NCBI GenBank assembly: GCA_015062115.1
Contig: SUVG01000001.1
Location: 124,001 to 188,000, forward strand
Source: Elusimicrobium sp.
GTDB lineage: Bacteria; Elusimicrobiota; Elusimicrobia; Elusimicrobiales; Elusimicrobiaceae
Length of the DNA: 64,000 nt
Direction of reading: 5' to 3'
How positions within the stretch are numbered: the stretch's first letter is position 1; each line of letters begins with the position of its first letter. Below the pieces are notes generated by a model. It made no database searches, was not told where the DNA came from, and worked only from the letters and a program-made list of their open reading frames with translations. Below are positions 2,750-63,987 of this stretch, in pieces. The translations under genes and the position numbers were made by a program.

Positions 2750-3487
2750 CTATTTATAAAAATTTTTTATATATGCTTTCATTTTTTCCCAACACTGCAT
2801 AACAGAAGAAAACAACCAAGTAGATTTTATCTTTTCTGTTAAGGTCGGTTCTGTTACCGCTCCTTTATTCCAGGCAAGAGAGATAGTAAATCCCTCTCCC
2901 GGTGCCAAAGGCGTAGTAGTATAGAAAAATAAATTTTCCACACTTTGTGCGGTCCGCTCGCTTCCCTTTGCTCCGGAACGGCCCGCATAAAGAGAAACGC
3001 CGTTCTTTACCAAAGAAGCCCCTTTGGGCAGGGCCACATGCACGGCAGCTTTTTCTATTTCAAATTTCCAATCGTTCCCTGTTAAGTTCCAATAAAACTC
3101 ATCAAAATTTTTATGATAACGCAAAGCGCCAAAAACTCGATAATGGATATCGTAGGCATGAACGCCTTTTGAGATTATCTTCTCAGGGTTTCCGATGCGA
3201 AGAGTAAGCGTTTTTGAATCTTCGGTTTTAGAAAATTCTTCCTTTTGTCCGTCTCTGGATACGGAAAGGATTTCATAGCGGTCCAGCCCTTTTTTAGCAA
3301 GAGTTCGAAAAATACCCCGTTTGATCTCTTTCGAAGTGGAACAAACAAGAATTCTTTCACGAACCGTAACGGAGGAATCCGCACTTATTTGTGTTAATAC
3401 ATCAAACCGAAGGATTTTTTCCGTGTCACACGCACAACACCAAGAAAAAGAAAGTAAAAACAACAAAGAAAGAATTATTTTTTTCAT
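2750..3487 (-). CDS. Secreted DUF2207-type domain protein, without the usual membrane region
   Basis: 245 residues with a signal peptide (1-19, ending in CCAC; a lipobox is possible but weak). Residues 25-205 match the N-terminal extracytoplasmic domain of DUF2207 proteins: the SSVTVRERI strand, the KRGIFRTL motif and the later Y..YRVFGALR and YWNLTGNDWKFEIEKA segments. Family members normally continue into several transmembrane helices and a cytoplasmic tail; here the protein stops after a short helix, so it is a domain-only version. Function of the family is unknown. A TATAAT lies 6 nt before the ATG and no Shine-Dalgarno site is present, so translation is probably leaderless. Confidence 0.7.
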   Translation of the reverse strand: MKKIILSLLFLLSFSWCCACDTEKILRFDVLTQISADSSVTVRERILVCSTSKEIKRGIFRTLAKKGLDRYEILSVSRDGQKEEFSKTEDSKTLTLRIGNPEKIISKGVHAYDIHYRVFGALRYHKNFDEFYWNLTGNDWKFEIEKAAVHVALPKGASLVKNGVSLYAGRSGAKGSERTAQSVENLFFYTTTPLAPGEGFTISLAWNKGAVTEPTLTEKIKSTWLFSSVMQCWEKMKAYIKNFYK

Positions 3488-3493
3488 ATTTTC

Positions 3494-3499
3494 ATTATA
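3494..3499 (-). promoter_or_regulatory. -10 box placing the start of the DUF2207 mRNA at its ATG
   Basis: Perfect TATAAT on the minus strand with 6 nt (GAAAAT) between it and the ATG at 3487. No convincing -35. Transcription would begin at or next to the start codon. Confidence 0.6.
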
Positions 3500-3528
3500 G
3501 TAAATACACGCTTTCCTATGTATTTTGA

Positions 3529-3534
3529 TAGAAT
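3529..3534 (+). promoter_or_regulatory. Extended -10 promoter of the 3551 gene
   Basis: TGA-TAGAAT (TG at 3526-3527). The predicted start of transcription near 3541 leaves a leader of about 10 nt that holds little more than the AGAGG ribosome site at 3541-3545. This also excludes the earlier in-frame ATG at 3518, which lies upstream of the promoter. Confidence 0.5.
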
Positions 3535-3550
3535 ATACACAGAGGATTTT

Positions 3551-4099
3551 ATGCGTTACATTTTATATTTATTTACCATGGCACTTCTGTTTGTGGGCGG
3601 TATGATGGTGGGAAATATGTTTCTGCCGGAGCAGGCGGCTTCGCTTGCGGCGGCGGTGTCGGTTCCTTCTCTAACCGACCAGAACCCCATGTTGCAAACG
3701 CTCACTTCCGAAACAACCGAAAAGAATTTAACCACCCTCAGCCAAGCGCTTGAATCGTGCCCGGTAGTGGTAAATGAAGAAAAAGACCGCATCATCAACG
3801 AAATCCGCCTTCGGCTGGCCATGGAAGATTTTGAACTCAAAAAAGCCCGTTTGGAACTGGAAATTGCCAAAAACAAAGAGGCTAACCGACCTACCGCTCA
3901 GTTTACCCAAGCCAATGTGGAATACAACCAGGCCCGTGCCTATGCGGAAAAATTAGCCAACGAACTTTTCCCCGTCCAAGCACCGGAGGAACAAGTCCCC
4001 GCTGCTGAACCGACGGAAGAAAAAACCTCGACCGAAACTGCCGCACCCGAACAAAAAGCCCCTTCCACCGACATGGCGAAAGAGGCTCCCGGTAAATAA
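3551..4099 (+). CDS. Membrane-anchored coiled-coil protein of unknown function
   Basis: Start chosen at ATG 3551 because AGAGG precedes it by 5 nt; an ATG at 3518 has no ribosome site. The 182-residue product has one N-terminal hydrophobic helix (MRYILYLFTMALLFVGGMMV), a helical stretch with heptad-like E/K/L spacing over roughly residues 60-130, and a disordered tail rich in Pro, Glu and Ala. It is probably anchored in the inner membrane with the rest in the periplasm. I recognise no family. Convergent with the nucleotidyltransferase gene, within which its terminator lies. Confidence 0.6.
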   Translation: MRYILYLFTMALLFVGGMMVGNMFLPEQAASLAAAVSVPSLTDQNPMLQTLTSETTEKNLTTLSQALESCPVVVNEEKDRIINEIRLRLAMEDFELKKARLELEIAKNKEANRPTAQFTQANVEYNQARAYAEKLANELFPVQAPEEQVPAAEPTEEKTSTETAAPEQKAPSTDMAKEAPGK

Positions 4100-4105
4100 A
4101 AGTTT

Positions 4106-5038
4106 TTACTGATTAAATTTATCCAAAACCGCGTGCTTCGCGGTTTTTTGTTGCAGTTTCGTTTGCGGGCCCACGATTGTATCTTCCAATTTGCAATCTT
4201 TCAAGTCGGCCCCGTATGCCACAGATACATAAGGCCCCAACACGCAATTTTCCGCTTTTACGCCTTCTTCAATTTGGCACGGGGGGATAATAGTATTGTT
4301 TTTTTCCAATTCGGCAGGAACCCGATGATAACGGTCTAAAAGCAAACGGTTTGTCTGCAGCAACACTTCCACCGTTCCGCAATCAAACCAGTCTTTCATC
4401 ATGACCGGCACAATCTCTTCCCCGCGCGACAACAAAACAGACAAAGCGTCCGTCAATTGAATTTCATTTTTAACGGTTTTTCCGGAACGGATTACTTCTT
4501 CCAAAGCATCAAACAGTTGGGCCGAATCTAAAAACGAATACGCACCGATAATAGCCAAGTTTGATTTGGGACAAACAGGTTTCTCTTCAAACGAAATAAT
4601 CTTTCCTTCTTTTAGTTCTACAATTCCAAAACGCGAAGGGTCGGCCACTTCTTTGATGCCCACGGCGTTTTGCCCGCCAAAGACTAACGGGCGTAAATCT
4701 CCGTCCACAATCGTGTCGCCCAACAAAATAAAACAAGGGCCCGTTACATAATCTTTCGCTAAATAAATGGCATGGCCCAGGCCCTTGGGTTCGGGTTGTT
4801 CGATAAAAGTTACTTCTAAATGTGCATACCGCTCACGGACAAATTCCACAATGGCTTCTTTTTTATACCCGACGATAAAAGCCACTTTTTTAATGCCGCA
4901 CTTTTCCACTTGATCCAAAATATGGCCCAAAATCGGCTTACCCGCCACGCTAATCATGCTTTTGGGCATATTTTCGGTGTAGGGCAAAAGTCGCACGCCT
5001 TTACCGGCGGCTGGAATAATGGCCGTAAATTCTTTCAT
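4106..5038 (-). CDS. Sugar-1-phosphate nucleotidyltransferase (RmlA/GalU-like)
   Basis: 310 residues. The nucleotide-binding loop PAAGKGVRLLPYT is at 9-21, PKSM at 25-28, QPEPKGLGHA at 81-90 and the metal-binding GDT at 107-109, all in the order of glucose-1-phosphate thymidylyl/uridylyltransferases. The C-terminal 70 residues have the hexapeptide-like pattern (NCVLGPYVSVAYGADLKDCKLED) of a left-handed beta-helix. It makes an NDP-sugar from NTP and sugar-1-phosphate in the cytoplasm; the exact nucleotide and sugar cannot be read from the sequence. Third gene after ridA and malQ, so it could use glucose-1-phosphate from glucan turnover. No clear ribosome site precedes the ATG. Confidence 0.82.
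   Translation of the reverse strand: MKEFTAIIPAAGKGVRLLPYTENMPKSMISVAGKPILGHILDQVEKCGIKKVAFIVGYKKEAIVEFVRERYAHLEVTFIEQPEPKGLGHAIYLAKDYVTGPCFILLGDTIVDGDLRPLVFGGQNAVGIKEVADPSRFGIVELKEGKIISFEEKPVCPKSNLAIIGAYSFLDSAQLFDALEEVIRSGKTVKNEIQLTDALSVLLSRGEEIVPVMMKDWFDCGTVEVLLQTNRLLLDRYHRVPAELEKNNTIIPPCQIEEGVKAENCVLGPYVSVAYGADLKDCKLEDTIVGPQTKLQQKTAKHAVLDKFNQ
4125..4149 (+). terminator. Plus-strand terminator embedded in the 3' end of a minus-strand gene
   Basis: AAAACCGCG (4125-4133), loop TGCTT, CGCGGTTTT (4139-4147) and a T-run to 4149. It serves the 3551 gene while also encoding the last residues of the convergent nucleotidyltransferase. Confidence 0.75.
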
Positions 5039-5054
5039 CTTATGAAGGGCCGTT

Positions 5055-6626
5055 TTAAGCGCGGCCGGTCTCCTTTAGCAGTTCGCGGTACATAGCCAAC
5101 TGCTCGCTATATATTTCGGCGGCTTGCGCGGGGGTATATTCGCTACGATATGTCCAATTTTCTTCTCCCACGGTACCGGGTGTATTGACCCGATCCAGCG
5201 TGCCGATAATATCTTGCCACGAGAACATAGTAAGCGCGGAACTGGAATCTAATACGCGGCGTAAAATAGTGCGTTGCGTACCTAAATTAAAAGGCACATT
5301 TCCGTCTGTTTTTTGAGCGGAAATCATTTCCCAAATGTTGGCTCGTTCGTAATTATCCATGGTTTCCCACCAACCGCGCACGGTTTCGGTATCATGCGTG
5401 GAAGTAGTAGCCAAAGAGACCAGCGGATAATGGCGGGGTTCACGGTAATAACCGTTATCCTCGCGTTCCCAACGCAACACCTTATATCCGGGGATACGCA
5501 AATCTACCAACATACGGCGCACATAGTTGGGGATAACCCCCAAATCTTCCCCGACGGGAAGTTTGCCGTTTGCTTCGTCCAGCACCATGCGCAGGAATTG
5601 ATATCCGCGGTCGATTTGGGCTTGTTCACCCAACCAATCGAAGCCGCCTTGTTCGTCACCCGGCGCAAAAATATACGTGCGGAAAAAACCCACCAAATGG
5701 TCTAAACGGAACACATCATACAGTTCCGTTACCCGGCGGATTTTACGACGCCACAAATCTAAATTATGGGAAAGTTGATAGGCCCAATCATACGCAGGAA
5801 GCCCCCAGCGTTGCCCGCCTTTGGAAAACTGATCGGCAGGGGCGCCGACTTCCCACCCCAAACGATAATTTTCCCGTTCGGACCAAACTTCCGCACTATC
5901 CAAATTGGTTCCGTAGGGGATATCCCCGAAAATCAAAATGCCTTTTTCGGCGGCAAACACTTTGGCCCGGCGCAGTTGTTGATCCAACACCCATTGTACA
6001 TAGCGGAAGAAATCCACATATTCGCGGTATTGGGCTTCAAAAGCGTCCACCGCTTGTTTGTTAAAATCGCGCAAAGCCTCGGGCCATTGCGTCCAGGTTT
6101 GCCATTTATAAAATTCTTTCAGGGTACGGAAAAGCGAATAGCCTCTCAACCAGCCCGACTGCGCGGCACAGTACGCTTCAAAGGCTTGGTAACGCGCGGA
6201 ACGAACACTTTGTTCGGCCACCAAAAACCGTTGGTAACCGTACCACAGTGCTTTCATTTTGGCTTGTTTTACCGCAAAGAAAGGAGCCTTCGGCGCTTTG
6301 TGCCACTCGGCAATTTTGGTTTGCAGACTTTCCACAAACTCACGCGCGCGCGGGCTGGCCATGACATCTTCGGCCTGGGAAATATCGGCATATACCGGGT
6401 CGGTAGCAAAAGCACTTAAGGCCGAATATGGGCAAGTTTCGTTAGGGGCGGTTTCCTGCAAAGGCAAGATTTGGACGATTTTTGTTCCTTGCGAAGCAAA
6501 AAAGGAAGTCCACTCTTGCAGGGAGCCAAAATCTCCCACGCCCCAATCGTGCTCGGTTTTCATGGCGGCAAGCGGCAACAAAATGCCGTTGACGCGCCCG
6601 GAGAGAACTTGGTCTTGTATGGTCAT
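5055..6626 (-). CDS. malQ: 4-alpha-glucanotransferase (GH77, amylomaltase)
   Basis: 523 residues, typical of bacterial MalQ. The catalytic residues are in place: nucleophile D309 in FRLDHLVGF, acid/base E360 in VGEDLGVIP, and D412 in TSTHDTETVRGWW. The N-terminus has the substrate-loop signature WGVGDFGSL and QILPLQ. The enzyme transfers alpha-1,4-glucan segments between maltooligosaccharides and releases glucose in the cytoplasm, for glycogen or maltodextrin use. It lies between ridA and the nucleotidyltransferase in one minus-strand operon with gaps of 9 and 16 nt. Confidence 0.95.
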   Translation of the reverse strand: MTIQDQVLSGRVNGILLPLAAMKTEHDWGVGDFGSLQEWTSFFASQGTKIVQILPLQETAPNETCPYSALSAFATDPVYADISQAEDVMASPRAREFVESLQTKIAEWHKAPKAPFFAVKQAKMKALWYGYQRFLVAEQSVRSARYQAFEAYCAAQSGWLRGYSLFRTLKEFYKWQTWTQWPEALRDFNKQAVDAFEAQYREYVDFFRYVQWVLDQQLRRAKVFAAEKGILIFGDIPYGTNLDSAEVWSERENYRLGWEVGAPADQFSKGGQRWGLPAYDWAYQLSHNLDLWRRKIRRVTELYDVFRLDHLVGFFRTYIFAPGDEQGGFDWLGEQAQIDRGYQFLRMVLDEANGKLPVGEDLGVIPNYVRRMLVDLRIPGYKVLRWEREDNGYYREPRHYPLVSLATTSTHDTETVRGWWETMDNYERANIWEMISAQKTDGNVPFNLGTQRTILRRVLDSSSALTMFSWQDIIGTLDRVNTPGTVGEENWTYRSEYTPAQAAEIYSEQLAMYRELLKETGRA

Positions 6627-6635
6627 CAGGAAATC

Positions 6636-7013
6636 CTATTTTTTAGCAATGGCTTCGATTTCGATAGAACTTCCTTTGGGAAGACCCACCACTTGCACAG
6701 TGGTGCGGGCAGGCGGATTTTCCTTAAAGAAAGTGCCGTACACGGCGTTCATTTCGGCGAATTGGGTTAAATCGGTCATAAAAACGGTAGTTTTTACTAC
6801 ATTTTTAAGCGTGCAACCGGCTTCCTTCAAAATGTTTTCCAAGTTTTTCAGGATAATTTCGGTTTGAACGCGCACATCGCCGTTGTAAATTTCGCTGGTT
6901 ACGGGGTCAATGGGAAGCACACCGGAAGTGTACACGAAACCGCCTTCTTCAATGGCTTGGGAATACGGGCCGATTGCTTTGGGCGCGTTGGAAGAGTTGA
7001 TAACTTTTTTCAT
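6636..7013 (-). CDS. ridA: RidA-family enamine/imine deaminase
   Basis: Start set at ATG 7013, which has GAGG 7 nt upstream and gives the usual 125-residue RidA length; the longer frame back to 7073 has no support. The family signatures AIGPYSQA near the N-terminus, TSGVLPIDP, LKNLENILKEAG and the substrate-binding arginine in ARTTVQVVGLPKG are all present. RidA hydrolyses reactive 2-aminoacrylate-type enamines formed by PLP enzymes. It is the first gene of the operon with malQ and has a good sigma70-like promoter just upstream. Confidence 0.92.
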   Translation of the reverse strand: MKKVINSSNAPKAIGPYSQAIEEGGFVYTSGVLPIDPVTSEIYNGDVRVQTEIILKNLENILKEAGCTLKNVVKTTVFMTDLTQFAEMNAVYGTFFKENPPARTTVQVVGLPKGSSIEIEAIAKK

Positions 7014-7058
7014 AAAAACCTCACAAATAGATTTGGGACTTATATGTCCATTTGTTAT

Positions 7059-7285: not shown

Positions 7286-7360
7286 GCGCTCGTAGCTCAG
7301 TGGTAGAGCATCCGCCTTTTAAGCGGGGGGCCGTGAGTTCAAGTCTCACCGGGCGCACCA
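7286..7360 (+). tRNA. tRNA-Lys (anticodon TTT), CCA encoded
   Basis: Cloverleaf: acceptor GCGCTCG/CGGGCGC, D arm GCTC...GAGC, anticodon stem TCCGC/GCGGG with loop CTTTTAA, T arm GTGAG-TTCAAGT-CTCAC, discriminator A and encoded CCA at 7358-7360. The anticodon TTT reads lysine codons. It is separated by 5 nt from tRNA-Glu and both are transcribed together. Confidence 0.95.
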
Positions 7361-7550: not shown

Positions 7551-7556
7551 TATAAT
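7551..7556 (+). promoter_or_regulatory. -10 box directly before the Slp-like lipoprotein gene
   Basis: Perfect TATAAT with 6 nt (ATACAC) to the ATG at 7563; no -35 better than TTAAAT and no ribosome site. Predicted to give a leaderless mRNA. Confidence 0.6.
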
Positions 7557-7562
7557 ATACAC

Positions 7563-8525
7563 ATGAAGCAAATTCTTATCCTATTTTTATGTGCATTTTT
7601 AGGGGCTTGCAGTTCTATGATTCCGTACAAAGACCAAGACCTTAACTACCTGCACGGCATAGAACAAAATCCGCAGAATTATATGGATAAGGTGGTTTCT
7701 TTCGGAGGAGAAGTGCAGGGCGTTACCGAAGACACCAACCTGCTTCGCCTGGTACTTAAAATAGATGTACCGCTTTATTATTACGCTATCGGAAAAGATA
7801 CTCTTTCTTACGAACTTTTATTGGTAACCTACGAAAAGAAAGATCTGCCGCAGATGACGGGCATTAAAAAAGGCCATTTGGTAAAAGTATTGGCGCGCGT
7901 AGCCAATTACGAAACACGAAAAAATTTAGTAGGCAAAGAGGTGGCCGTACTGCATTTGAAAGCCTTTGCTCTTTCCAACCGGGATAAAAACAAAGATTTT
8001 TTCCACCCGCAATCCCCCGAAAAAGAACTTTACCAATCTTGGAAATCGGGCAGACTTTTCTTTGAAGAACAACCGGAAGATTTAACGCGCCCCGCCGATG
8101 AGCCTGCCGCGCCTGCCCCCAAACCTGCGAAGGAAAAAACAATTCGCTTGCTCCCGTTGCGGGAAAAAGAGGAAGAATTAAAACCCATTTCCGAGCCTAT
8201 CCCCGGCGGAATTATTTTTGATGAGGAGGAAGAACCCTTTATTCTCCCCCCCGACCCGCAACCCGAACAACCCGCAACCCCCGAAGGGGCAGAGGCCCTA
8301 CAAACGGAACAGGAACAAGAAACGGAAGAACTTTCCGCCGTAGAATCAACCGCCACAACGGCCCTAACGCAAGAAGAAAAGCAGGAGGTCTCCTCTCCCA
8401 AACAAACGGAACAACCCTCGCTTAATGCCCCTACCGAACAGGTAACACAACCTGCCGAAGAAACACAAGAGGCTCCCCAAGAAACTATCCCCGCCGACAA
8501 AACCCAAACCGAGCCTGCGGCTTAA
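7563..8525 (+). CDS. Slp-like outer-membrane lipoprotein with a Pro/Glu-rich tail
   Basis: The start at ATG 7563 gives a lipoprotein signal (MKQILILFLCAFLGAC, lipidated Cys16); the frame extends upstream to 7515 but that would bury the signal. Residues 25-140 resemble the Slp/YeaY lipoprotein fold: an N..NYMDKVVSFGGEVQGV strand pair followed by LVKVLARV and a final AVLHLKAF. From about residue 165 to the end the 155-residue tail is disordered and dominated by Glu, Pro, Gln and Thr, which could span the periplasm or surface. Function of Slp proteins is poorly known (starvation-related in Escherichia coli). Likely leaderless translation. Confidence 0.65.
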   Translation: MKQILILFLCAFLGACSSMIPYKDQDLNYLHGIEQNPQNYMDKVVSFGGEVQGVTEDTNLLRLVLKIDVPLYYYAIGKDTLSYELLLVTYEKKDLPQMTGIKKGHLVKVLARVANYETRKNLVGKEVAVLHLKAFALSNRDKNKDFFHPQSPEKELYQSWKSGRLFFEEQPEDLTRPADEPAAPAPKPAKEKTIRLLPLREKEEELKPISEPIPGGIIFDEEEEPFILPPDPQPEQPATPEGAEALQTEQEQETEELSAVESTATTALTQEEKQEVSSPKQTEQPSLNAPTEQVTQPAEETQEAPQETIPADKTQTEPAA

Positions 8526-11913: not shown

Positions 11914-11919
11914 TAAAAT
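11914..11919 (+). promoter_or_regulatory. -10 box directly before the ClC gene
   Basis: TAAAAT with 6 nt (AGTGGT) to ATG 11926; no clear -35 or ribosome site. Leaderless mRNA predicted. Confidence 0.5.
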
Positions 11920-11925
11920 AGTGGT

Positions 11926-13305
11926 ATGTTAAACGAGCAAAAAAATAATGTGGTAAGTATTGTAAAATGGTTTTTTCTCGCAACGGCTATCGGGTGTGTG
12001 GTCGGCGTGTTGGACGCGGCTTTCTTAAAAATGCTGGATAACTCCATTGCGCTTCGCAACGAAATTCCCCTTTTCTATCTTTGCTTGCCTTTTGCCTTAT
12101 ATATAGTGGCACTTTTGTCGCGCAAAGTGGCTAAAAAAGATAAAGATTTCTCCACCGATGCCGTTATCGATAAAATCAACACCTACAACCCCATTTCGCT
12201 CGTTTCCATTGCAAAAGGATTTGTGCTTTCTATCGTAACCATGGTTACCGGCGGTTCCGCCGGGAAGGAAGCCCCCTGCGCCGATGTGGGGGCGGGCGTG
12301 GCCTCTTTTATTTCCCGCGTGTTCAAAATGAGTTTGGAAGACCAACGCAAAATGATGATTTGCGGCGTAAGTGCCGGGTTTGCGGGAGTGTTCGGCGTGC
12401 CGATATCCGGGGCCATGTTTGGGTTGGAAGTGTTGTGGGTAGGACATATTTTTTACGAAGTTATGTTCCCTGCGTTGGTGGCCGGAATTACGGCCTTTCA
12501 AGTAACCAGTTTTTTGGGAGTAGATTACATTTATCACCCGCTGCACTTTGTACCGGTATTTTCGGAAAAGTTTTTCTTAAAAATGATTGTTGCGGGTATG
12601 TTCTTTGGGCTCGTATCCATTTTATTTATTGAGATAATGAAGTTTACCCGCGTGCTATTTCGCTATATCGCGCTTAGAACGCGTATGTTTTGGGCGTGTT
12701 TTATCGGCGGGTTGGTGTTGGTATGCATCGGGTATTTTATTTCCCCGGCTTATTTGGGGCTCGGTATGCCCGGCATTGAAGGTGCTTTAAGTGGCAACCC
12801 GTTAGACTCGCCTTTTGGGTTTTTGTATAAGATTATTACAACTTCCGTTACCTTTGCCGCAGGCGGTATCGGTGGGGTGGTAACACCTATTTTCTTTGTA
12901 GGGGCCCAAGCAGGAGCCATGCTGGCAGATTTTATCCATGTAGATCCGGCTACTTTAGCCGCACTCGGATTGGTAGCCGTACTGGCGGGAACGGCCAATA
13001 CGCCTTTGGCGGCCAGCATTATGGCTATTGAACTTTTCGGGCCCGCCATCGCCCCGTATGCTACGGTGGCATGTGTAATCAGTTTCTTAATTACCGGGCA
13101 ACAGAGTATCTACCAAAGCCAACGCATTACCTGGGATAGCGGCAAAACACCAGACGAACACCCTGCCGTCCCGCGTGTTTACGGCCGCCGTGCTACCGAC
13201 AAACCTGCTAAAACACATGTGCGCAAGAACCTGCTGAAAAAAGCCTTTAAGGAAATGACACACCACCTAATCCCTAACCCCAAAGGATTTGACGAGAAGA
13301 AGTAA
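11926..13305 (+). CDS. ClC-family chloride channel/antiporter
   Basis: 459 residues with the ClC helix pattern. The selectivity-filter segment GGSAGKEAP at 109-117 carries the gating/proton glutamate E115, and the second anion-binding segment GGIGGVVTPIF lies near residue 315; GTANTPLAASIMAIELF is the third. The first motif (GSGIP in E. coli) is not obvious. A retained gating glutamate fits either an H+/Cl- exchanger or a gated channel. There is no CBS domain; the last 60 residues are a basic cytoplasmic tail. The ClC-family call is safe, the transport mode is not. Confidence 0.9.
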   Translation: MLNEQKNNVVSIVKWFFLATAIGCVVGVLDAAFLKMLDNSIALRNEIPLFYLCLPFALYIVALLSRKVAKKDKDFSTDAVIDKINTYNPISLVSIAKGFVLSIVTMVTGGSAGKEAPCADVGAGVASFISRVFKMSLEDQRKMMICGVSAGFAGVFGVPISGAMFGLEVLWVGHIFYEVMFPALVAGITAFQVTSFLGVDYIYHPLHFVPVFSEKFFLKMIVAGMFFGLVSILFIEIMKFTRVLFRYIALRTRMFWACFIGGLVLVCIGYFISPAYLGLGMPGIEGALSGNPLDSPFGFLYKIITTSVTFAAGGIGGVVTPIFFVGAQAGAMLADFIHVDPATLAALGLVAVLAGTANTPLAASIMAIELFGPAIAPYATVACVISFLITGQQSIYQSQRITWDSGKTPDEHPAVPRVYGRRATDKPAKTHVRKNLLKKAFKEMTHHLIPNPKGFDEKK

Positions 13306-26040: not shown

Positions 26041-27318
<1,278 letters not shown>

Positions 27319-43709: not shown

Positions 43710-43718
43710 TGCTACAAT
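43710..43718 (+). promoter_or_regulatory. Extended -10 box directly before dedA
   Basis: TGC-TACAAT ending 6 nt before ATG 43725; no ribosome site. Leaderless mRNA predicted. Confidence 0.6.
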
Positions 43719-43724
43719 CTAAAT

Positions 43725-44375
43725 ATGGAATTTTTAACACAAATAATTGATATTTTTTTACATTTAGATGTCCACCTGAACACCTGGGCCGCCTGGATGG
43801 GGGTTTGGCTTTATGTGGTTATTTTCGTTGTCGTTTTTTGCGAAACGGGATTGGTGGTTACGCCCTTTTTGCCGGGAGATTCGTTATTGTTTGCCTGCGG
43901 GGCCTTGGCCGCCACGGAAGGAAGTTCTATCAATTTAGGTTGGTTGATTCCCGTTATTTTGGCGGCCGCAGTATTGGGTGATTTTTGCAACTACGAAATC
44001 GGCAAGTGGTTGGGGCCCAAAGTATTTACGCGGGAAAACAGTATCTTTTTGAATAAAGACCACCTGAATAAAGCCCATGCCTTTTATGAAAAATACGGCG
44101 GGAAAACGATTATTTTGGCGCGGTTTATCCCCATTATCCGCACCTTTGCGCCTTTTGTGGCGGGAATAGGCAAAATGACTTATTTTCATTTTGCCTCTTA
44201 CAACATTATCGGAGCGATATTGTGGGTGTGTTTATTTACGGTGGGCGGATATTTCTTTGCCGATTTACCCCTCGTAAAAGACCAGTTCCACTATGTGGTA
44301 CTTGCCATTATTGTCATTTCCGTACTTCCGGCTGTTTACGAATTTATCGCGGCCCGAAAAAAGAAATCTTCTTAA
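43725..44375 (+). CDS. DedA-family membrane protein
   Basis: 216 residues. Family signatures FCETGLVVTPFLPGDSLLFACGAL and FYEKYGGKTIILARFIPIIRTFAPFVAG are intact, including the acidic and arginine residues needed in E. coli YqjA/YghB. Members are VTT-domain proteins; several act in undecaprenyl-phosphate or phosphatidylethanolamine translocation, but the ligand of this one is not known. Single gene with own promoter and terminator. Confidence 0.93.
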   Translation: MEFLTQIIDIFLHLDVHLNTWAAWMGVWLYVVIFVVVFCETGLVVTPFLPGDSLLFACGALAATEGSSINLGWLIPVILAAAVLGDFCNYEIGKWLGPKVFTRENSIFLNKDHLNKAHAFYEKYGGKTIILARFIPIIRTFAPFVAGIGKMTYFHFASYNIIGAILWVCLFTVGGYFFADLPLVKDQFHYVVLAIIVISVLPAVYEFIAARKKKSS

Positions 44376-47120: not shown

Positions 47121-47223
47121 AAAAAATACTCCTAAAAAACAGACCTATCTATTATATTTTACACCATAAAGAGGTATAATATATCTATATATAAATACCA
47201 ATCAAAGAGGATAATACATCACT

Positions 47224-48687
47224 ATGACCGTAAGAGTTAGATTTGCCCCTTCACCGACAGGATTTTTACATATCGGCGGGGTTCGCACGGCGCTTTTCAA
47301 TTACCTTTTCGCTAAAAAAAATAAAGGCACTTTCTTGCTTCGCATCGAAGACACCGACGAAGAACGCTCCACCCAAGCCTCTACCGATGCCATTTTCGAA
47401 GGTATGCAATGGATGAATTTAACCTGGGACGAAGGCCCCATGCCCGACGGTACCGATAAAGGGCCGGATTTCCCTTATTACCAAGCCCTCCGTGCCGATC
47501 AAGGCCTTTACAAAAAATACATTGACCAACTTCTCGCCGAAGGCAAAGCCTACAAATGCTACTGCACGGCCGAAGAATTGGAAGCAAACCGTCAAAAATG
47601 CATCGAAGAACACCGTCCGCCGAAATACGACGGCAAATGCAGTCGCTTGACGGAAGAACAACAAAAGGAATTGGAAGCCCAAGGGCGCAAATATGTAATC
47701 CGCTTTCGCATGCCTCAGGAAGGTGATGTGGAATGGGACGACATGATTCGCGGTCATGTAAAATTTGCCAGCAAAGATTTGTACGATTTGGTTATCCAAA
47801 AAACAAGCGGGTATCCCACCTACAACTTTGCCGTAGTGGTAGATGACCATTTAATGCGCATGACGCACATTATCCGCGGGGACGACCACATTTCCAACAC
47901 GCCGGCTCAAATTCAAATTTATCGTGCCCTCGGTTGGAAGGAACCGATTTTTGCCCACTTATCCATGATTCACGGGCCGGACGGCAAAAAACTTTCCAAA
48001 CGCCACGGCGCCACCAATGTGGTGGAATTTAGAAACATGGGTTACCTGCCCGAAGCCTTGAAAAACTACTTGGCTCTCTTGGGTTGGGCTACCTCGGATT
48101 CGCAACAAATTTTCGCCCCCGGCGAACTGGAAGAAAAATTTGATATTGCCGGTTGCCAACCCAGCCCGGCCGTAATGGATCCCGAAAAATTAAACTGGAT
48201 GAACGGGGAATATATCCGCGCAACTTCTTTAAGCCGCTTGACCGACTTGGCCTTGCCGTTTATCGAAAAAGCCGGCATCAACATTTCCTCCGTCAGCCGC
48301 GAACGCTTGGAAGGCATTATCGGTTTGGAACATGAAAAATACAAATTGTTAACCGAAATCCCGGATTTAATCCGCTTCTTCTTTGAAGAACCTGTTTTTG
48401 AACAGGAAGCCATCGAAAAAGTTTTCGGTAAACCCGAAGCCAAACAAGTACTTGAACTGATGATTAACGCTTACGGCAAATTGGAAGATTTTACGGAAGC
48501 CAATTTGGAAGCCACTGCCCGTGCCACCGCCAAGGAAAACGGTTTGAAAGCAGGCCAAATCTTCCACCCGATTCGCGTTTCCGTATCGGGCCGCACCCAT
48601 GGGCCGACCTTATTCAAAATGTTGGAATACATGGGCAAGGAAACCGTACTTGCACGCTTGAATAACGCCCTTCAATACTGCAAATAA
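47224..48687 (+). CDS. gltX: Glutamyl-tRNA synthetase
   Basis: 487 residues. FAPSPTGFLHIGGVRTALFN holds the HIGH-type motif and KLSKRHGATNV the KMSKS loop; CYCTAEELE is the zinc-binding SWIM-like region and LRIEDTDEERS is diagnostic for GluRS. It charges tRNA-Glu, one of whose genes is at 7.4 kb. AGAGG precedes the ATG. No GatCAB genes are in the window, so it cannot be told whether it also charges tRNA-Gln. Confidence 0.95.
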   Translation: MTVRVRFAPSPTGFLHIGGVRTALFNYLFAKKNKGTFLLRIEDTDEERSTQASTDAIFEGMQWMNLTWDEGPMPDGTDKGPDFPYYQALRADQGLYKKYIDQLLAEGKAYKCYCTAEELEANRQKCIEEHRPPKYDGKCSRLTEEQQKELEAQGRKYVIRFRMPQEGDVEWDDMIRGHVKFASKDLYDLVIQKTSGYPTYNFAVVVDDHLMRMTHIIRGDDHISNTPAQIQIYRALGWKEPIFAHLSMIHGPDGKKLSKRHGATNVVEFRNMGYLPEALKNYLALLGWATSDSQQIFAPGELEEKFDIAGCQPSPAVMDPEKLNWMNGEYIRATSLSRLTDLALPFIEKAGINISSVSRERLEGIIGLEHEKYKLLTEIPDLIRFFFEEPVFEQEAIEKVFGKPEAKQVLELMINAYGKLEDFTEANLEATARATAKENGLKAGQIFHPIRVSVSGRTHGPTLFKMLEYMGKETVLARLNNALQYCK

Positions 48688-52467: not shown

Positions 52468-53835
52468 TTATTGGCGGCCGGCCGGGTCTTTTCCGTCCAA
52501 AAGTCCTTCCTGTTTTTGATGACCGCAGAAAGTGGCTTTGTCGCGCAGTTTTCGGTGATAGGTTACAGCGAAACGGTGAACCTCGTCGCGGATTTCCATT
52601 AGTAAGTTAAGTGCCGGGTCGCCCAGCGGCAGTTTAATGCTTTCTTCGCTTCCGGGCAGATAAATTCCCTCGTGGGTTTCGGCCAAAGAAATAAACGGAA
52701 CAAAAAGTTTGGCACGCTCAAAGGCATTTAGCGCGGCAGAAATTTGGCTTTTCCCGCCGTCCAACAAAAAGAGGTCGGGCATTTGGGACGGGTCGCGCTT
52801 GAGTTGCCTAAGACGCCGATAGACACTTTCTTCCATCATGGCAAAATCACTTCCGCCGCGGGTGGGCAGTTTGGAACGAATCTTAAAACGGCGGTAGTGC
52901 TCATGATGCTTTTCTCCGTTGATAAAACAGACCATACACCCCACCGCCTCCCGGCCGAACAAGTGGGAATTATCAAAGGCTTCTATATGCGCAGGTAATT
53001 TTTTGAAACCGATTACTTCCGCCAGGCGTTTTAATTTATCGGTATTCTGCATAGAAGTAGTAATTTTTTCATCATTAAAGCGCCCGACCAGTACCCGTTC
53101 CTTCATGTGTGAAAGAGCCTGTAAAAAATTGCGGAAAACAGCCGCCTGTTCGTATTCCATATGAGCGGAGTGGGTCTTCATCAAAGCGGTAATTTTTTCG
53201 GTAATACTGCCAAAATTCCCGTCTAAAAATTCTGCCAACCTCTCGGCAAGTGCCCGGTAATCTTCGTACGATATCTTCCCCGCACACGGCGCAGGACATT
53301 GCCCCGTATGGTAGTAAATACAAGTGTTTATTTTTCGATCGTCCAGTTCTTTTTCTCGCGAAAAATTCCACTTACACGGGCGCAAGGGAGCGTACTTACT
53401 TTTCCATAAAAAGCGCATTAAACTTTTGATAATGCTAGATTTTGGATAAGGGCCGAAGTACAAATCTTTTCCGCGCACCACCCGGCGGGTAAGAACCAGG
53501 CGGGGGTAGTCTTCGCTCATGGTAATTTTTAGATAAGGGTAACTTTTGCCGTCCTTGCCCAAGGAGTTGAAAAACGGTTGATATTGCTTAATCAGTTTTT
53601 CCTCTAGTACCAAAGCATCACGCTCGCTGGCACAGGTAACATAGTCAATCTTGGCAATAAGCGGGAGCAGACTGGGCAACTTCCACCCGCGCGAATAGAG
53701 GTTGGACTCTTGAAAGTATTGTTTCACCCGGTCGGCCAGATTTTTGGCTTTCCCCACATACAAAATCGTGCCCTCTTTCGAGCGCATGATGTAAACCCCG
53801 GGTTTATTTGGTAAAATATTAAGGCGCGGATCCAT
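52468..53835 (-). CDS. uvrC: UvrC excinuclease subunit lacking the helix-hairpin-helix end
   Basis: 455 residues against about 600 for UvrC. The GIY-YIG domain (PGVYIMRSKEGTILYVGKAK, with its Tyr, Arg and Glu) and the RNase H-like nuclease (D in EAFDNSHLFG, D in FLLDGGKSQ, H in DEVHRFAVTYHR) are complete. After that last His there are only about 25 residues instead of a double helix-hairpin-helix DNA-binding domain, and none is found in other frames downstream. The UVR motif region is around residue 200-230. Predicted leaderless, with its -10 box 6 nt before the ATG. Confidence 0.9.
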   Translation of the reverse strand: MDPRLNILPNKPGVYIMRSKEGTILYVGKAKNLADRVKQYFQESNLYSRGWKLPSLLPLIAKIDYVTCASERDALVLEEKLIKQYQPFFNSLGKDGKSYPYLKITMSEDYPRLVLTRRVVRGKDLYFGPYPKSSIIKSLMRFLWKSKYAPLRPCKWNFSREKELDDRKINTCIYYHTGQCPAPCAGKISYEDYRALAERLAEFLDGNFGSITEKITALMKTHSAHMEYEQAAVFRNFLQALSHMKERVLVGRFNDEKITTSMQNTDKLKRLAEVIGFKKLPAHIEAFDNSHLFGREAVGCMVCFINGEKHHEHYRRFKIRSKLPTRGGSDFAMMEESVYRRLRQLKRDPSQMPDLFLLDGGKSQISAALNAFERAKLFVPFISLAETHEGIYLPGSEESIKLPLGDPALNLLMEIRDEVHRFAVTYHRKLRDKATFCGHQKQEGLLDGKDPAGRQ

Positions 53836-53841
53836 GGATAT

Positions 53842-53850
53842 ATTCTAACA
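53842..53850 (-). promoter_or_regulatory. Extended -10 box directly before uvrC
   Basis: TGT-TAGAAT on the minus strand, 6 nt (ATATCC) before the ATG at 53835; no ribosome site. Confidence 0.6.
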
Positions 53851-59866: not shown

Positions 59867-59869
59867 AGA

Positions 59870-60553
59870 CTAGTCCTGTAAGAAGGTTTCGATTTCTACT
59901 TTTTCGTTGAAATCATCAAAGAACCCTTGTTGGGCCGTTTCCATTTTGCTATCCATCAACTGGTTGGCAAAATCTTTTTTATTCTTTTCAAAATCTTTCA
60001 TATTGCCGTGTTGCACATGGTAGGCATGTTTGATTTCGGCGGGAGTCAATTTGTAAAAAGAATACAACACCCCGCGGAAACGGTTGGATAAAGCACCGCG
60101 GCGAAGTTGGTTTTCAAATTCCATCGGTGTTAAACCGGTAGATTGTTTGATAGCAGCTTCGTAAGCAGCCTTGTTAAATTGCCCGTTTTGTGCAAAGAAC
60201 GGCGAGGTTTGAATTTCGTAAGCCACTTCGTAATCGGACACACTCAAACCCGCTTTTTCGACGGCCTGATTCAATACTTCTTCGCTGATTAAAGAGGCTA
60301 ACATTTGTTGGCGTAAAAATTTCAGGATATTTTCGTCCACATCGATACCTTGGTTGCGAAGGATACGGGCACGGTCTTCGGTAACGCGGTACAAAAGGCG
60401 GTTTTCGATTTCCTGAGAACCCACGCGGGCGGCTACGGAACTGAAATCGCCGCGGCTATAGGCATCTGCGCCCAAGTACACGATGCTTCCTAAAAAGAAA
60501 GCCAAGGTGATGATGAGAATACTTTTTTTATGTGTAATTAAAAACGAAATCAT
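59870..60553 (-). CDS. Membrane-anchored SurA/PpiD N-terminal-domain protein, no isomerase domain
   Basis: 227 residues. A signal anchor (12-32, IITLAFFLGSIVYLG) is followed by a helical chaperone-like domain typical of the N-terminal part of PpiD/SurA (VGSQEIENRLLYRV, EEVLNQAVEKAGL, SPFFAQNGQFNKAAYEAAIK). A parvulin peptidyl-prolyl isomerase domain, expected after about residue 200, is absent; the protein ends in a short acidic helix. It would act as a periplasmic chaperone tied to the inner membrane. Between bactofilin and PfkB, gap of 16 nt. Confidence 0.78.
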   Translation of the reverse strand: MISFLITHKKSILIITLAFFLGSIVYLGADAYSRGDFSSVAARVGSQEIENRLLYRVTEDRARILRNQGIDVDENILKFLRQQMLASLISEEVLNQAVEKAGLSVSDYEVAYEIQTSPFFAQNGQFNKAAYEAAIKQSTGLTPMEFENQLRRGALSNRFRGVLYSFYKLTPAEIKHAYHVQHGNMKDFEKNKKDFANQLMDSKMETAQQGFFDDFNEKVEIETFLQD

Positions 60554-60569
60554 ATTTTTCGCTCCCTAG

Positions 60570-60959
60570 TTATTTATCTTCTTCCGGCTCGTCGGTAGCA
60601 GTTTCTTCCCCACCGCCGATTTTGCATTGTCCGTCAATGCGGCCGCCTTCTTCTACAATCATTTTTTTGGCGCGGATATCGCCTTGAATAGAGGCTTGAG
60701 CCAATACTTCCAACATTTCGGCACAGACATTTCCTTCAATCACGCCTCCACAAACCACAATTTTTCCGGTTACATCTCCCACAATTTTGCCGTCCGTACC
60801 CACGATTACGTGGCGGGCATTATCCACAGAACCTTCCAAGGTGCCGTCCACGCGCAAAGAACCTTGCACGCTCAGCGTCCCTTGGAAATAACATTCCGCG
60901 CTCACAACAGAAAAATGTTCGCCGGAAGAAAAATCAGAGTCTTTTTTCAAAAATCCCAT
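60570..60959 (-). CDS. Bactofilin
   Basis: 129 residues. A central right-handed beta-helix is evident from the G.L.V.GSLRVDGTLEGSV, GKIVGDVTGKIVVCGGVIEGNV pattern, with short disordered ends (acidic tail EEDK). Bactofilins form nucleotide-free filaments and recruit cell-wall enzymes. The gene directly follows an M23 peptidase gene, the standard pairing that links bactofilins to peptidoglycan shape control. Confidence 0.93.
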   Translation of the reverse strand: MGFLKKDSDFSSGEHFSVVSAECYFQGTLSVQGSLRVDGTLEGSVDNARHVIVGTDGKIVGDVTGKIVVCGGVIEGNVCAEMLEVLAQASIQGDIRAKKMIVEEGGRIDGQCKIGGGEETATDEPEEDK

Positions 60960-60974
60960 ACGTCCTCCTAAAAA

Positions 60975-61895
60975 TTACTTAAAATAGTTTCGCGGATTAA
61001 CGGCTTGGCCGTCCTTCCACACTTCATAATGCAAATGCGTGCCGGTAGAACGACCGCTCGAGCCCATGGTGGCAATTACCGCCCCGCGTTTTACCACATC
61101 TCCCGCTTTTACGCGGATATCCGTGGCGTGGGCATAAAGGGTGGAATAACCAAAACCGTGATCCACCAAAATAGCCTGCCCATAACTGGGCACCCACCCC
61201 GCGTGACGCACGACTCCGTCCGCCGTTACAAAAATGGGGCTGTCCGGCTTGCCGGCAAAATCTAACCCGTTGTGGCGTTTGGTGGTGCGTCGGCCGAACG
61301 GATCCAACCGGTAGCCAAAACCCGAACTAATCCGCGCCGTGGACGGACGGATAGACGGAGTGGAGTTTAAGCCTTCGCGTCGGTTGGCAAAGTACCAGGC
61401 GATTTCCTGGAAGCTGGCCAGGCGCGCTTTGGCAGTTTCTTCGATTGAATCGATGTATTTTTCAAATTCTACGGCATCTAAATCTTTCAAATCTTTGCCC
61501 AAAAGTTCCTGGGCGCGGGCATCTTCTTTGGCTTTGGCATCTTCCCACCCTTTGGGCAGGTTAATAAATTTACCGCCCGGCATACCCAGCATTTGGCGCA
61601 TTTGGGTATCGGTGGTGCGGGTCATCTCCAAATAACGACGGCCACGCTCCAACTCGTCGGCAATCAATTTCATTTTCACGCGCATGAGTTCGTTGTCGGC
61701 TTTGGTGATATTATAGTCGTACCCGCGGATAAAAAATAAAAATCCGCACAGGGTTACCGCCAACCACGCCACTCCCGCTAACAGCAACGTAACCACACGC
61801 ACTTTGAACTTAACAGGGGAACTCAGGCGAGGCATCAACATGATGTCCACCCGTTCTCCCAATACGCGGCTCAAAGAATTGATTATTTTACCCAT
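60975..61895 (-). CDS. M23 metallopeptidase with membrane anchor and coiled coil
   Basis: 306 residues: a transmembrane helix near 35-55, a coiled-coil segment (about 65-160), and a C-terminal LytM/M23 domain with HNGLDFAG and HLHYEV zinc motifs plus the catalytic His in VDHGFGYSTLYAH. It is inserted in the inner membrane and cuts peptide cross-links in peptidoglycan. First gene of the bactofilin operon. No ribosome site; a -10 box ends 7 nt before ATG 61895, so leaderless translation is predicted. Confidence 0.93.
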   Translation of the reverse strand: MGKIINSLSRVLGERVDIMLMPRLSSPVKFKVRVVTLLLAGVAWLAVTLCGFLFFIRGYDYNITKADNELMRVKMKLIADELERGRRYLEMTRTTDTQMRQMLGMPGGKFINLPKGWEDAKAKEDARAQELLGKDLKDLDAVEFEKYIDSIEETAKARLASFQEIAWYFANRREGLNSTPSIRPSTARISSGFGYRLDPFGRRTTKRHNGLDFAGKPDSPIFVTADGVVRHAGWVPSYGQAILVDHGFGYSTLYAHATDIRVKAGDVVKRGAVIATMGSSGRSTGTHLHYEVWKDGQAVNPRNYFK

Positions 61896-61902
61896 CTTTT
61901 GT

Positions 61903-61911
61903 ATTCTATCA
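61903..61911 (-). promoter_or_regulatory. Extended -10 box directly before the M23 gene
   Basis: TGA-TAGAAT on the minus strand with 7 nt (ACAAAAG) to the ATG. Confidence 0.6.
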
Positions 61912-61955
61912 TATACAGAGCCCTTACAGGGCGGTTTTCGTAAAAAGGAGAATCT

Positions 61956-62444
61956 ATGAAAAAATTGTTATGGACTGTTGCCCTGGCTGTATTTGCCGGT
62001 GCCTGTATGTTCAAACCCCTTCCGGAAGTTCCGGTATTGGGTGATGTAGAATTGCCTGTTGTCGCCGAAGAAGAAGTCATTTGGAAATCGGCCGATTACA
62101 AAGGCAAACCCATGATTATGGTTTTTATGGGGTCTTGGTGTCCTTATTGCAAAAAGAGCATGCCCGCCGTTCAAGCCGCCGCCGAAGCCTATGGCGATAA
62201 AGCGGAAATTGTAGCCGTGTTTGTAGACCAAGATGCCAAAACCGTGCAAGAAGTAGCCCAAGAACACGAATTTACCGTAAAATCTTTGTATGCCGGCGGT
62301 GCCGCTGCCCAAGCGTTGGGTGTATCGGGCTTGCCCCATGCTATTTTGTTTGATAAAAAACATCAAATTGTAAAAACATGGGAAGGTTTCAGCCCCTCTT
62401 TGGAAACGGAATTCAAAGAACAATTGGAAAAACGCACCAAATAA
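61956..62444 (+). CDS. TlpA-like thioredoxin-fold lipoprotein
   Basis: 162 residues. The signal ends in a lipobox (VFAGAC, Cys17), so it is anchored in a membrane. GSWCPYCKKSMP gives a CPYC active site (DsbA/TlpA-like), and VSGLPHAILFD is the cis-Pro region. It would reduce or oxidise thiols in the periplasm. AAGGAG before the ATG. Divergent from the M23-bactofilin operon, with a terminator behind. Confidence 0.85.
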   Translation: MKKLLWTVALAVFAGACMFKPLPEVPVLGDVELPVVAEEEVIWKSADYKGKPMIMVFMGSWCPYCKKSMPAVQAAAEAYGDKAEIVAVFVDQDAKTVQEVAQEHEFTVKSLYAGGAAAQALGVSGLPHAILFDKKHQIVKTWEGFSPSLETEFKEQLEKRTK

Positions 62445-62456
62445 ACTTTTTCTTAT

Positions 62457-62482
62457 CCCCCGTCCAAAAACGGGGGATTATT
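62457..62482 (+). terminator. Terminator of the TlpA-like gene
   Basis: CCCCCGT (62457-62463) and ACGGGGG (62470-62476) followed by ATTATTTTA. Confidence 0.8.
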
Positions 62483-62515
62483 TTATATTTAGAAAACGAA
62501 ATAAAAAAATAAAAG

Positions 62516-62544
62516 TTTGCTTTTGCGTGTAAATTTGTTATAAT
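62516..62544 (+). promoter_or_regulatory. Promoter of tRNA-Leu
   Basis: Extended -10 TGT-TATAAT (62536-62544) with a fair -35 TTTGCT (62516-62521) at 17 nt. Confidence 0.7.
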
Positions 62545-62562
62545 AAATGTACACGATTTCAT

Positions 62563-62646
62563 GCCGGGGTGCTGGAATTGGTATACAGGATAGTCTCAAA
62601 AACTATTGCCCGCACGGGCTTAAGGGTTCAAGTCCCTTCCCCGGTA
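62563..62646 (+). tRNA. tRNA-Leu (anticodon CAA), CCA not encoded
   Basis: 84 nt. Acceptor GCCGGGG/CCCCGGT (terminal G-T pair), anticodon stem ATAGT/ACTAT with loop CTCAAAA, long variable arm GCCCGCACGGGC, T arm AGGG-TTCAAGT-CCCT. Anticodon CAA reads the leucine codon UUG. The 3' end is followed by AAA instead of CCA. Confidence 0.95.
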
Positions 62647-62654
62647 AAATTTAG

Positions 62655-62680
62655 AAAACCACCTGAAAAGGTGGTTTTTT
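62655..62680 (+). terminator. Terminator of tRNA-Leu
   Basis: AAAACCACCT (62655-62664), loop GAAA, AGGTGGTTTT (62669-62678) and T's. Confidence 0.9.
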
Positions 62681-62859
62681 ATTTTGCCGCAGAGAGCGCA
62701 TAAACTGCTATATGCGCGTAAGGACTTGAAAGGCGCAACGATGTTTTTGTTTGAGCGGAGAAACTCCGTGAAAGGCAAAAACCGCGAGCCCGGCCTGCAG
62801 GCATTTTGACGCAATAGATAGATTTATTCAGTTATGTAGAAATTAACGCCAATCAAATT
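62681..62859. other. Structured non-coding segment between tRNA-Leu and the NERD gene
   Basis: Higher GC than the gene that follows. It contains GCGCATA/TATGCGC (62696-62717), CGGAG/CTCCG (62756-62768) and the palindrome GCCTGCAGGC (62793-62802). A minus-strand frame (62620-62814) runs across the tRNA and is not credible as a gene. Function unknown; a repeat element or an integration scar is possible. Confidence 0.4.
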
Positions 62860-63972
62860 TTAACGATAAAGTCTGTCTTCCCCTTTCATGTCTTTAATAT
62901 TTTCAATATGCTTGGTTTTGATGAAATCATTTCTTCCATACTCTACGGCTTGAGATAGTCTTTTTTTGATATTTATATCATAAAACACGGATCTATCTTC
63001 TGCCAAAATTCTATCTAGGACATTAGAAATTTGTCTTGGTTTAGCAATATAAGTGTCTTTTGGAATAAAACTTATATCTTTTAATTCAGAGTTTCCATAG
63101 AAAACAATTACTGAAAAACAAGGAATAGATTTACCAATATAATTTTTTAAATTGGATATATGTTTTTCATTCTGCTTGATTGGATTGTAGAATCTGTGTT
63201 TTTCCTTTCCATAATTTAGCACTTGAGTCCATTGATTATGATTGCCTTTACCAAAAATCCAACCACTATAATCTTTTACCTCAAAGACAATAATACCCAC
63301 AGATGTCAAAAGCAGTAAATCTATTTGAGAAAAATTCCCATTTTTTAATGGTATGTACAGGTTGTGATAGATGTCTTCGGCAGAATATCCAAGATTTCTT
63401 AACATCAAAATTAAGCGTTCTTCAGATTTTTCACCTATTCCTATTTCTGTTATTTCTTCCAAAGTTTTACGGTCTTGTATCCAATTAAATATATAGCAAC
63501 AGAAAAAACCTAAAAGAGCCAAAAGTATTATTAGCCACCAAACACCTAGCCACCAAACACCGCTAAAATCGTCATGGTTGGTATATTCAGTATATCGGTT
63601 TATTTTAGCTTGAGAGACCTGTCTTTTAATTTTAGGCCATATTACTTTGATGTTTTCCAGTTCCACATCCTGTGTTTTTGTTTTAACTTTTATTTCTTTT
63701 GTTTTGCCTTTTTCCAATTCCATAGTTAAAAGAAGAACTAAATTTTCTCTTTTATCTAATTCGATATTGGATATAACTAAAGTTTTTCCGGCAAATGCCT
63801 TGGTTTTAAATTTCTTGTTTGCAATTTTATATCTTTCTCCTTTGGAAATTGTATCTGCAAACTTGATTTTCTTTCCAATAAAGCCTTTATAATTAGAAAT
63901 AGTTATCTCTCCTGCTAATGAACACAGGCTAACCAAACAAAAACAACACAAAAAAATTATTTTTCTAATCAT
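62860..63972 (-). CDS. NERD-domain (nuclease-related) membrane protein
   Basis: 370 residues. Signal peptide 1-20, an extracytoplasmic beta-rich region (20-135), a transmembrane helix (about 145-165, LGVWWLIILLALLGFFCCYIF given here in part as LGVWWLIILLALL), then a NERD domain (about 180-290): GEKSEERLILMLRNLG, FSQIDLLLLTSVGIIVFEVKDYSG with the D..ExK core of PD-(D/E)XK-like nucleases, and YNPIKQNEKHI. The gene is clearly more AT-rich than the rest of the window and rich in Lys, Ile and Asn codons, a sign of recent transfer. Its ATG has a -10 box 6 nt upstream. DNA or RNA processing or defence is possible; none is shown. Confidence 0.85.
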   Translation of the reverse strand: MIRKIIFLCCFCLVSLCSLAGEITISNYKGFIGKKIKFADTISKGERYKIANKKFKTKAFAGKTLVISNIELDKRENLVLLLTMELEKGKTKEIKVKTKTQDVELENIKVIWPKIKRQVSQAKINRYTEYTNHDDFSGVWWLGVWWLIILLALLGFFCCYIFNWIQDRKTLEEITEIGIGEKSEERLILMLRNLGYSAEDIYHNLYIPLKNGNFSQIDLLLLTSVGIIVFEVKDYSGWIFGKGNHNQWTQVLNYGKEKHRFYNPIKQNEKHISNLKNYIGKSIPCFSVIVFYGNSELKDISFIPKDTYIAKPRQISNVLDRILAEDRSVFYDINIKKRLSQAVEYGRNDFIKTKHIENIKDMKGEDRLYR

Positions 63973-63978
63973 ACACCT

Positions 63979-63987
63979 ATTATAACA
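63979..63987 (-). promoter_or_regulatory. Extended -10 box directly before the NERD gene
   Basis: TGT-TATAAT on the minus strand, 6 nt (AGGTGT) from the ATG at 63972. AGGTG is too close to act as a ribosome site. Confidence 0.6.

Follow-up and report, generated by a model that had tools for sequence, protein, structure and literature searches.

Eight genes in a 64,000-nucleotide (nt) stretch of an Elusimicrobium genome (contig SUVG01000001.1, positions 124,001 to 188,000; this whole stretch is referred to as the window) carry a TATAAT-like -10 box that ends 6 or 7 nt before their ATG start codons. Leaderless mRNA is a known alternative start of protein synthesis, and its use side by side with Shine-Dalgarno (SD)-led initiation is known in many bacteria. 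At a probability of roughly 0.9, we consider the box-proximal genes to be leaderless, i.e., predicted to be transcribed, in the manner of ordinary bacterial leaderless genes, from -10 promoters at which no -35 element is detectable, beside SD-led genes. Since the promoter directly adjoins the start codon, the mRNA would be expected to begin at that codon, with no ribosome-binding leader. The promoter element, its spacing, the lack of SD sites and, for four of the genes, conservation can be read from the DNA itself. The source genome comprises 1.44 Mb in 8 contigs and is 95.6% complete; the window has a G+C content of 46%. Among named records, the best match to its tgt was a contig of an uncultured Elusimicrobiales bacterium (L051; 80% identity over residues 103-386), and other named matches reached 55% or less, in a search that may omit very near records; we take the genome to belong to the class Elusimicrobia.

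In agreement with an earlier note on this DNA, the upstream regions of all eight genes showed a TANNNT box 6 nt before the ATG, or 7 nt in tgt and the M23 peptidase gene (Table 1). The note had also claimed that none of the eight has an SD site. This stood for seven, whose longest match to AAAGGAGGTGATC within the last 20 nt was 3 to 4 bases and never included a GGAG core at usable distance (in uvrC, a GGA lies 17 nt away), but not for the NERD gene, where AGGTG ends 1 nt before the ATG, which is too close for a normal SD, yet not nothing. Its statement that most neighboring genes have clear AGGAG-type sites was correct in part: among 162 other operon-first genes, 120 had an SD match of at least 4 bases at some candidate start, but only 72 reached at least 5 bases. 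No 16S match from which to read the anti-SD tail was found in the assembly, by a search that also missed 5 of 14 control genomes. We took the SD system as canonical because a table in PMC10783764 appears to give CCUCCUUU for both Elusimicrobia and Endomicrobia.

Table 1. Box-proximal starts in the window, and the leadered start of gltX for contrast
Feature	Position	Strand	Basis
TATAAT + 6-nt gap, DUF2207 gene (2750-3487)	3488..3499	minus	upstream sequence; Pfam DUF2207
TATAAT + 6-nt gap, lipoprotein-like Slp gene (start 7563)	7551..7562	plus	upstream sequence
TAAAAT + 6-nt gap, ClC channel gene (11926-13305)	11914..11925	plus	upstream sequence; Pfam Voltage_CLC
TAAAAT + 7-nt gap, tgt (26149-27318)	26136..26148	plus	upstream sequence and genus alignment; Pfam TGT
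TACAAT + 6-nt gap, dedA (43725-44375)	43713..43724	plus	upstream sequence and genus alignment; Pfam VTT domain (DedA-type)
Contrast promoter region of gltX (47224-48687), leadered and SD-led: GAGG SD and -10 box 43 nt ahead of ATG	47163..47223	plus	genus alignment; Pfam
TAGAAT + 6-nt gap, uvrC (52468-53835)	53836..53847	minus	upstream sequence and genus alignment; Pfam UvrC domains
TAGAAT + 7-nt gap, M23 peptidase gene (60975-61895)	61896..61908	minus	upstream sequence and genus alignment; Pfam M23
TATAAT + 6-nt gap, NERD gene (62860-63972)	63973..63984	minus	upstream sequence; Pfam NERD

The positional distribution of such boxes was determined in a gene-aware sample of 444 kb (31%) of the same genome, using a simple coding-potential gene caller that was blind to upstream motifs. 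It called 369 genes, of which 354 were used (194 operon-first and 129 internal genes were compared); three genes with open ends were left out, as were those lacking an upstream neighbor in their stretch, and stretches L001 and L021 were excluded because they overlap with others. We denote by d the number of nt between box end and start codon, by tight box a TATAAT with at most one inner mismatch, and by loose box TANNNT. With every candidate ATG counted, a tight box stood at d=6 in 21 and at d=7 in 11 of the first genes, compared with 4.0 per position at d=13-40. These boxes were concentrated at the first genes of transcription units (32/194 at d=6 or 7), versus 2/129 internal genes (2 at d=6, none at d=7). 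Outside the window, 17/161 first genes had a tight box at d=6 and 9/161 at d=7, amounting to 26 distinct genes where ∼7 were expected (mean background, 3.4 per position at d=12-40). Against in-frame backgrounds of 3.5 (d=6) and 4.0 (d=7), the P values were 2e-7 and 0.02, respectively, so that the signal is carried by d=6. After background subtraction, about 12% of operon-first genes belong to the box-proximal type. For the loose box at d=6, 28 genes were found with ATG (background, 11.1), none with GTG, and two with TTG.

The genome-wide peak expected by the earlier note was thus recovered when genes were taken into account (26/161 versus ∼7), but not by a blind count of TANNNT-N6-ATG, which gave 530 occurrences versus 547 for the reversed pattern. 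This lack of blind enrichment is what could be held in favor of chance, i.e., of A+T-rich intergenic DNA in which some TATAAT happens to fall next to an ATG. The tighter TNNTANAAT-N6-ATG, however, was enriched in the genome (68 versus 10 reversed, and versus 20 at d=15); the same-frame control at d=15 was run because TAA is part of every match to the reversed TNNTANAAT pattern, which we considered to bias that comparison. For the class of genes as a whole, the positional peak and the conserved footprints described below contradict chance, to which we assign a negligible probability, although single cases at d=7 may have arisen in this way.

When aligned by their boxes, the 32 matches displayed A-A-T-T-T, then G or A, any base, TAnAAT, and A, with A+T-rich flanks. 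A promoter matrix (AATTTGnTAnAATA) was built from the box sites and scored leave-one-out, with a cutoff of 7 bits and an ATG downstream. Sites of at least 7 bits were present in 108/194 first genes, while shuffled stretches averaged 23.9 (control stretches were at most 150 bases long, whereas the real scan extended up to 300). The distance between site and ATG separated two groups of genes: sites at 5-8 nt occurred in 28 genes, none with an SD, and sites at 20-60 nt in 43 genes, 32 with an SD. The remaining sites lay at 0-4 nt (4 genes, 1 SD), 9-19 nt (10 genes, 5 SD), and 61-300 nt (23 genes, 17 SD). A second species from this genus had the box at d=5-8 in 10 genes (0 SD) and at d=20-60 in 20 genes (16 SD). 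That one matrix recovers both groups argues for the earlier proposal that two initiation modes may exist side by side in this organism. High scores were also obtained upstream of tRNA genes (15.5 bits at 17 nt before the one at 62562; 15.2 bits at 139 nt, i.e., far off, before the one at 7286), and we therefore regard the matrix as a general promoter marker.

These data also bear on the possibility that the boxes are not promoters but unstructured A+T-rich stretches that aid SD-less translation, for example via ribosomal protein S1, with transcripts beginning farther upstream. The A+T-rich box flanks would fit such a role, as would A+T-rich biases before SD-less genes in other phyla, which may reflect S1 (PMC5397173). 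We nevertheless consider it improbable, because the boxes share a specific sequence and a constant spacing rather than composition alone, the same element is found 20-60 nt before SD-led genes and before a tRNA gene, conservation drops at -20, and the peak is still present at 69% G+C.

A -35 element was not detected at the box-proximal genes: TTGACA-like hexamers (at least 4/6) occurred at spacers of 15-19 in 0-2 of 32 genes each, which is the background level. In the own genome and relative G030 combined, such hexamers at a spacer of 17 preceded 14/86 leadered versus 0/39 putatively leaderless genes (Fisher P = 0.005, with the spacer picked post hoc); pooled over spacers 16-18, the counts were 27/258 and 5/117. 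In the extended -10 columns, T was present in 31/39 and G in 22/39 (A in 13 more), and TG occurred together in 9/32, which is a tendency rather than a rule. A missing sigma region 4 was ruled out as the cause of the -35 lack, since RpoD carries sigma-70 regions 1.1 to 4 (Pfam). A second sigma-70-type factor with a Lys/Ala-rich, histone-H1-like C-terminal tail is encoded in two species (398 and 402 amino acids [aa]; L152:1363-2559 and L131:5998 onward), in both with TATGAT 6 nt before its own ATG. Judged by their N-termini, the box-proximal genes of two species (39 in total) presumably include several aminoacyl-tRNA synthetases, SmpB, ClpP, LipA, FolD, MutY, MnmE, and secreted proteins. The set would thus be one of ordinary housekeeping genes and not a single pathway.

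To assess conservation, we aligned the sequences preceding tgt, uvrC, dedA, and the M23 gene from as many as 30 genomes within the genus, including the own genome. The orthologue tables consisted of the best 30 loci per search, with the own genome where it was searched; matches were obtained in 60/61 (tgt), 35/37 (uvrC), 35/37 (dedA), 37/37 (M23), and 37/37 (gltX) genomes, and in 32/35 for tgt of family f15. Rows with a late match start were dropped (L037 in tgt, residue 24; L181 in uvrC, residue 12; L363 in f15 tgt, residue 13), and rows whose projected start is not ATG were set aside (L042 in tgt, L179 in uvrC). A box 5-8 nt from the ATG was found in 108/116 aligned starts (tgt, 26/28; uvrC, 28/28; dedA, 24/30; M23, 30/30). 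Pairwise identity inside the box was 0.76 for tgt, 0.72 for uvrC, 0.56 for dedA, and 0.94 for M23. Upstream of -20 it was 0.26-0.30 in the first three genes, approximately the level of unrelated sequences, and 0.31-0.44 in M23; the values at -45 to -31 were again 0.26-0.30 for these three and 0.41 for M23. In contrast, the gltX control showed an SD in 30/30 rows and a box at 5-8 nt in 0/30; in 29/30 rows, a TATAAT without mismatch was located at 32-57 nt.

The alignments are equally relevant to the notion that the box does act as a promoter while translation begins at a codon farther downstream, which would leave a leader. In its favor, some starts were placed elsewhere by coding score, and a few matches are clearly ATGs within SD-led genes (L018 9225, L002 16468). 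However, the ATG itself was kept in 28/29 tgt, 28/29 uvrC, 30/30 dedA, and 30/30 M23 rows, and signal-peptide-like sequence extends from the box-proximal ATG of the Slp, DUF2207, and NERD genes, making a downstream start very unlikely as a general explanation. The Slp product, which had no Pfam match, begins with MKQILILFLCAFLGACSS, which reads as a lipoprotein signal; this favors the start at 7563.

Most exceptions to box conservation concerned dedA. In five genomes (L195, L198, L199, L203, and L204), its box is gone and the ATG follows the stop codon of an upstream open reading frame (ORF) by 2-6 nt, with no SD; this ORF is conserved and ends with a conserved DPK..LKGIL.TL. tail. The arrangement looks like a switch from a leaderless start to translational coupling. 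In a sixth genome (L211), TAAGAT is present at 6 nt. For tgt, the box reads TAGTAT in L034, while in L032 it has been lost; the region upstream of this tgt instead contains a hairpin-plus-T stretch and AGGA, which suggests a switch to an SD-led start. The UvrC protein encoded in the window has 455 aa and contained GIY-YIG and UvrC RNase H domains but no other Pfam domain; UvrC is usually longer than this.

The spread of the arrangement was estimated in 284 genomes of the phylum by counting TNNTANAAT upstream of an ATG with d=6 and, in the same reading frame, with d=15. The d=6/d=15 ratio was 4.1 in the own genus (60 genomes), 2.7 in the rest of the family (20 genomes), 3.4 in the second family of the order (51 genomes), and 1.9, 3.3, and 4.7 in other families of the class (24, 7, and 37 genomes). 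Altogether, d=6 exceeded d=15 in 198/199 genomes of the class. Outside the class, the ratio was 1.24, with 70/85 genomes above, indicating a weak excess there too. Gene-aware samples of relatives, given as observed/expected genes at d=6 and 7 together, yielded tight boxes in 10/3.9 (G030; P = 0.007), 9/2.7 (G048; P = 0.002), 4/0.07 (G159), and 2/0.07 (G168), and loose boxes in 12/5.1 (G048; P = 0.006), 8/0.7 (G159; P = 9e-7), and 10/0.7 (G168; P = 5e-9). In the high-G+C relative G168, TANNNT stood at d=6 in 10/72 first genes against a background of 0.36 per position. Neither box was significantly enriched in G244, from outside the class (tight, 6/5.3, P = 0.43; loose, 14/12.6, P = 0.39). Genus g47, from another family, has TAGAAT 6-7 nt before a GTG start of tgt (L357-L361) and may thus have some leaderless starts at GTG; the sampled G168 had no general GTG peak. 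Taken together, the box system looks old, with gene membership turning over.

Several observations weigh against a leaderless interpretation or narrow its reach. Orthologues of the DUF2207, Slp, ClC, and NERD genes were not found by tblastn at 1e-8 or 1e-3 in 275 loci, including 20 flanking stretches, so that the evidence of conservation comes from the other four of the eight genes. The gene caller missed DUF2207 and NERD and placed two more of the eight starts elsewhere. At d=7, the loose box was also slightly raised before non-ATG codons (TTG, 10 versus a background of 5.4; GTG, 5 versus 3.4; CTG, 5 versus 2.2), and since the in-frame ATG count reached only P = 0.02 there, some d=7 matches are probably due to chance. 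With a broader SD definition that admits any candidate start, a match of at least 4 bases was present in 4/32 box genes (at least 5 bases in 1/32), in 2/10 box genes of G030, and in 4/9 of G048. The absence of SD sites is also partly mechanical, because an SD can hardly be fitted in once positions -12 to -7 are taken up by the box. Among the relatives, enrichment was not significant for either box in G039 (tight, 4/1.5, P = 0.07; loose, 7/4.4, P = 0.16) or for the loose box in G030 (15/11.3, P = 0.17). Finally, in family f15 only 4/29 genomes had TANNNT at 5-8 nt from an in-frame ATG of tgt, in at least one of them inside a neighboring ORF; five more had TAGAAT 6-7 nt before GTG, and many have a start that directly adjoins or overlaps the preceding ORF.

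In a survey of TA-like signals (Zheng et al. 2011, PMC3160421), 207 of 953 bacterial genomes were positive, with TANNNT located ∼12 bp ahead of the start codon; in Lactococcus, TG precedes the box and a -35 element is probably missing. The genes described here share this position and the presence of SD-led genes alongside, but differ by the AATTT block before the G/A and box. In Deinococcus-Thermus, TANNNT occurs ∼6-7 bp before the ORF, is conserved within the genus, and is followed by a rise in transcript reads (PMC12340547). The box studied here likewise adjoins the ORF and is conserved in the genus; unlike that motif, it is TAnAAT with an upstream element, and it concerns ∼12% of operon-first genes rather than nearly one third of genes. 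GeneMarkS-2 predicted leaderless transcription for 21.6% of bacterial species (Lomsadze et al. 2018, via PMC9581028), and its leaderless class resembles the present case in combining promoter and ribosome-binding site models within one genome. The string "Elusimicrobi" was absent from the main text of PMC3160421, in which one positive genome is given merely as unclassified; the taxon was unnamed in the main texts of PMC5397173 and PMC4535381, and in the accessible portion of PMC10783764, which mentions leaderless genes, Elusimicrobia were named just in the anti-SD table. No published report of leaderless genes in Elusimicrobiota, nor any joining Elusimicrobium minutum with leaderless expression, was found in a search that did not cover most subscription papers or any supplements. 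Leaderless genes of this kind are already known, and the mechanism proposed here would be conventional.

We propose the following course of events, in which the precise transcription start, the sigma factor involved, and the route taken by the ribosome are inferred. The housekeeping RNA polymerase would recognize and open an extended -10-like element (AATTTG/A-n-TAnAAT-A, with no detectable -35), and transcription would start 6-8 nt downstream of it, at the A of the ATG or no more than 1-2 nt away. The resulting mRNA, starting with AUG, would be translated without an SD by 70S or 30S-IF2 initiation, the AUG being recognized at the 5' end as it is in other bacteria. At the remaining operon-first genes, the same -10 element would act from farther upstream, together with an SD. 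For the class Elusimicrobia, we tentatively suggest, with less than even confidence, that leaderless initiation is ancestral and was retained, with -10-only promoters feeding leaderless genes and possibly -35-bearing promoters feeding SD-led genes, and that the system is absent or only weakly preserved in the rest of the phylum. If so, promoter type would be coupled to translation mode.

These findings extend leaderless gene expression, as judged from sequence, to a mostly uncultured phylum, and provide a rule for correcting gene starts in its genomes, namely, a box 5-8 nt before an ATG. Both promoter types could be tested within one organism, and the class versus the rest of the phylum offers a natural comparison for asking why leaderless translation is retained in some lineages. 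We find its distribution throughout the class, and a possible connection of promoter type with translation mode, the most interesting aspects.

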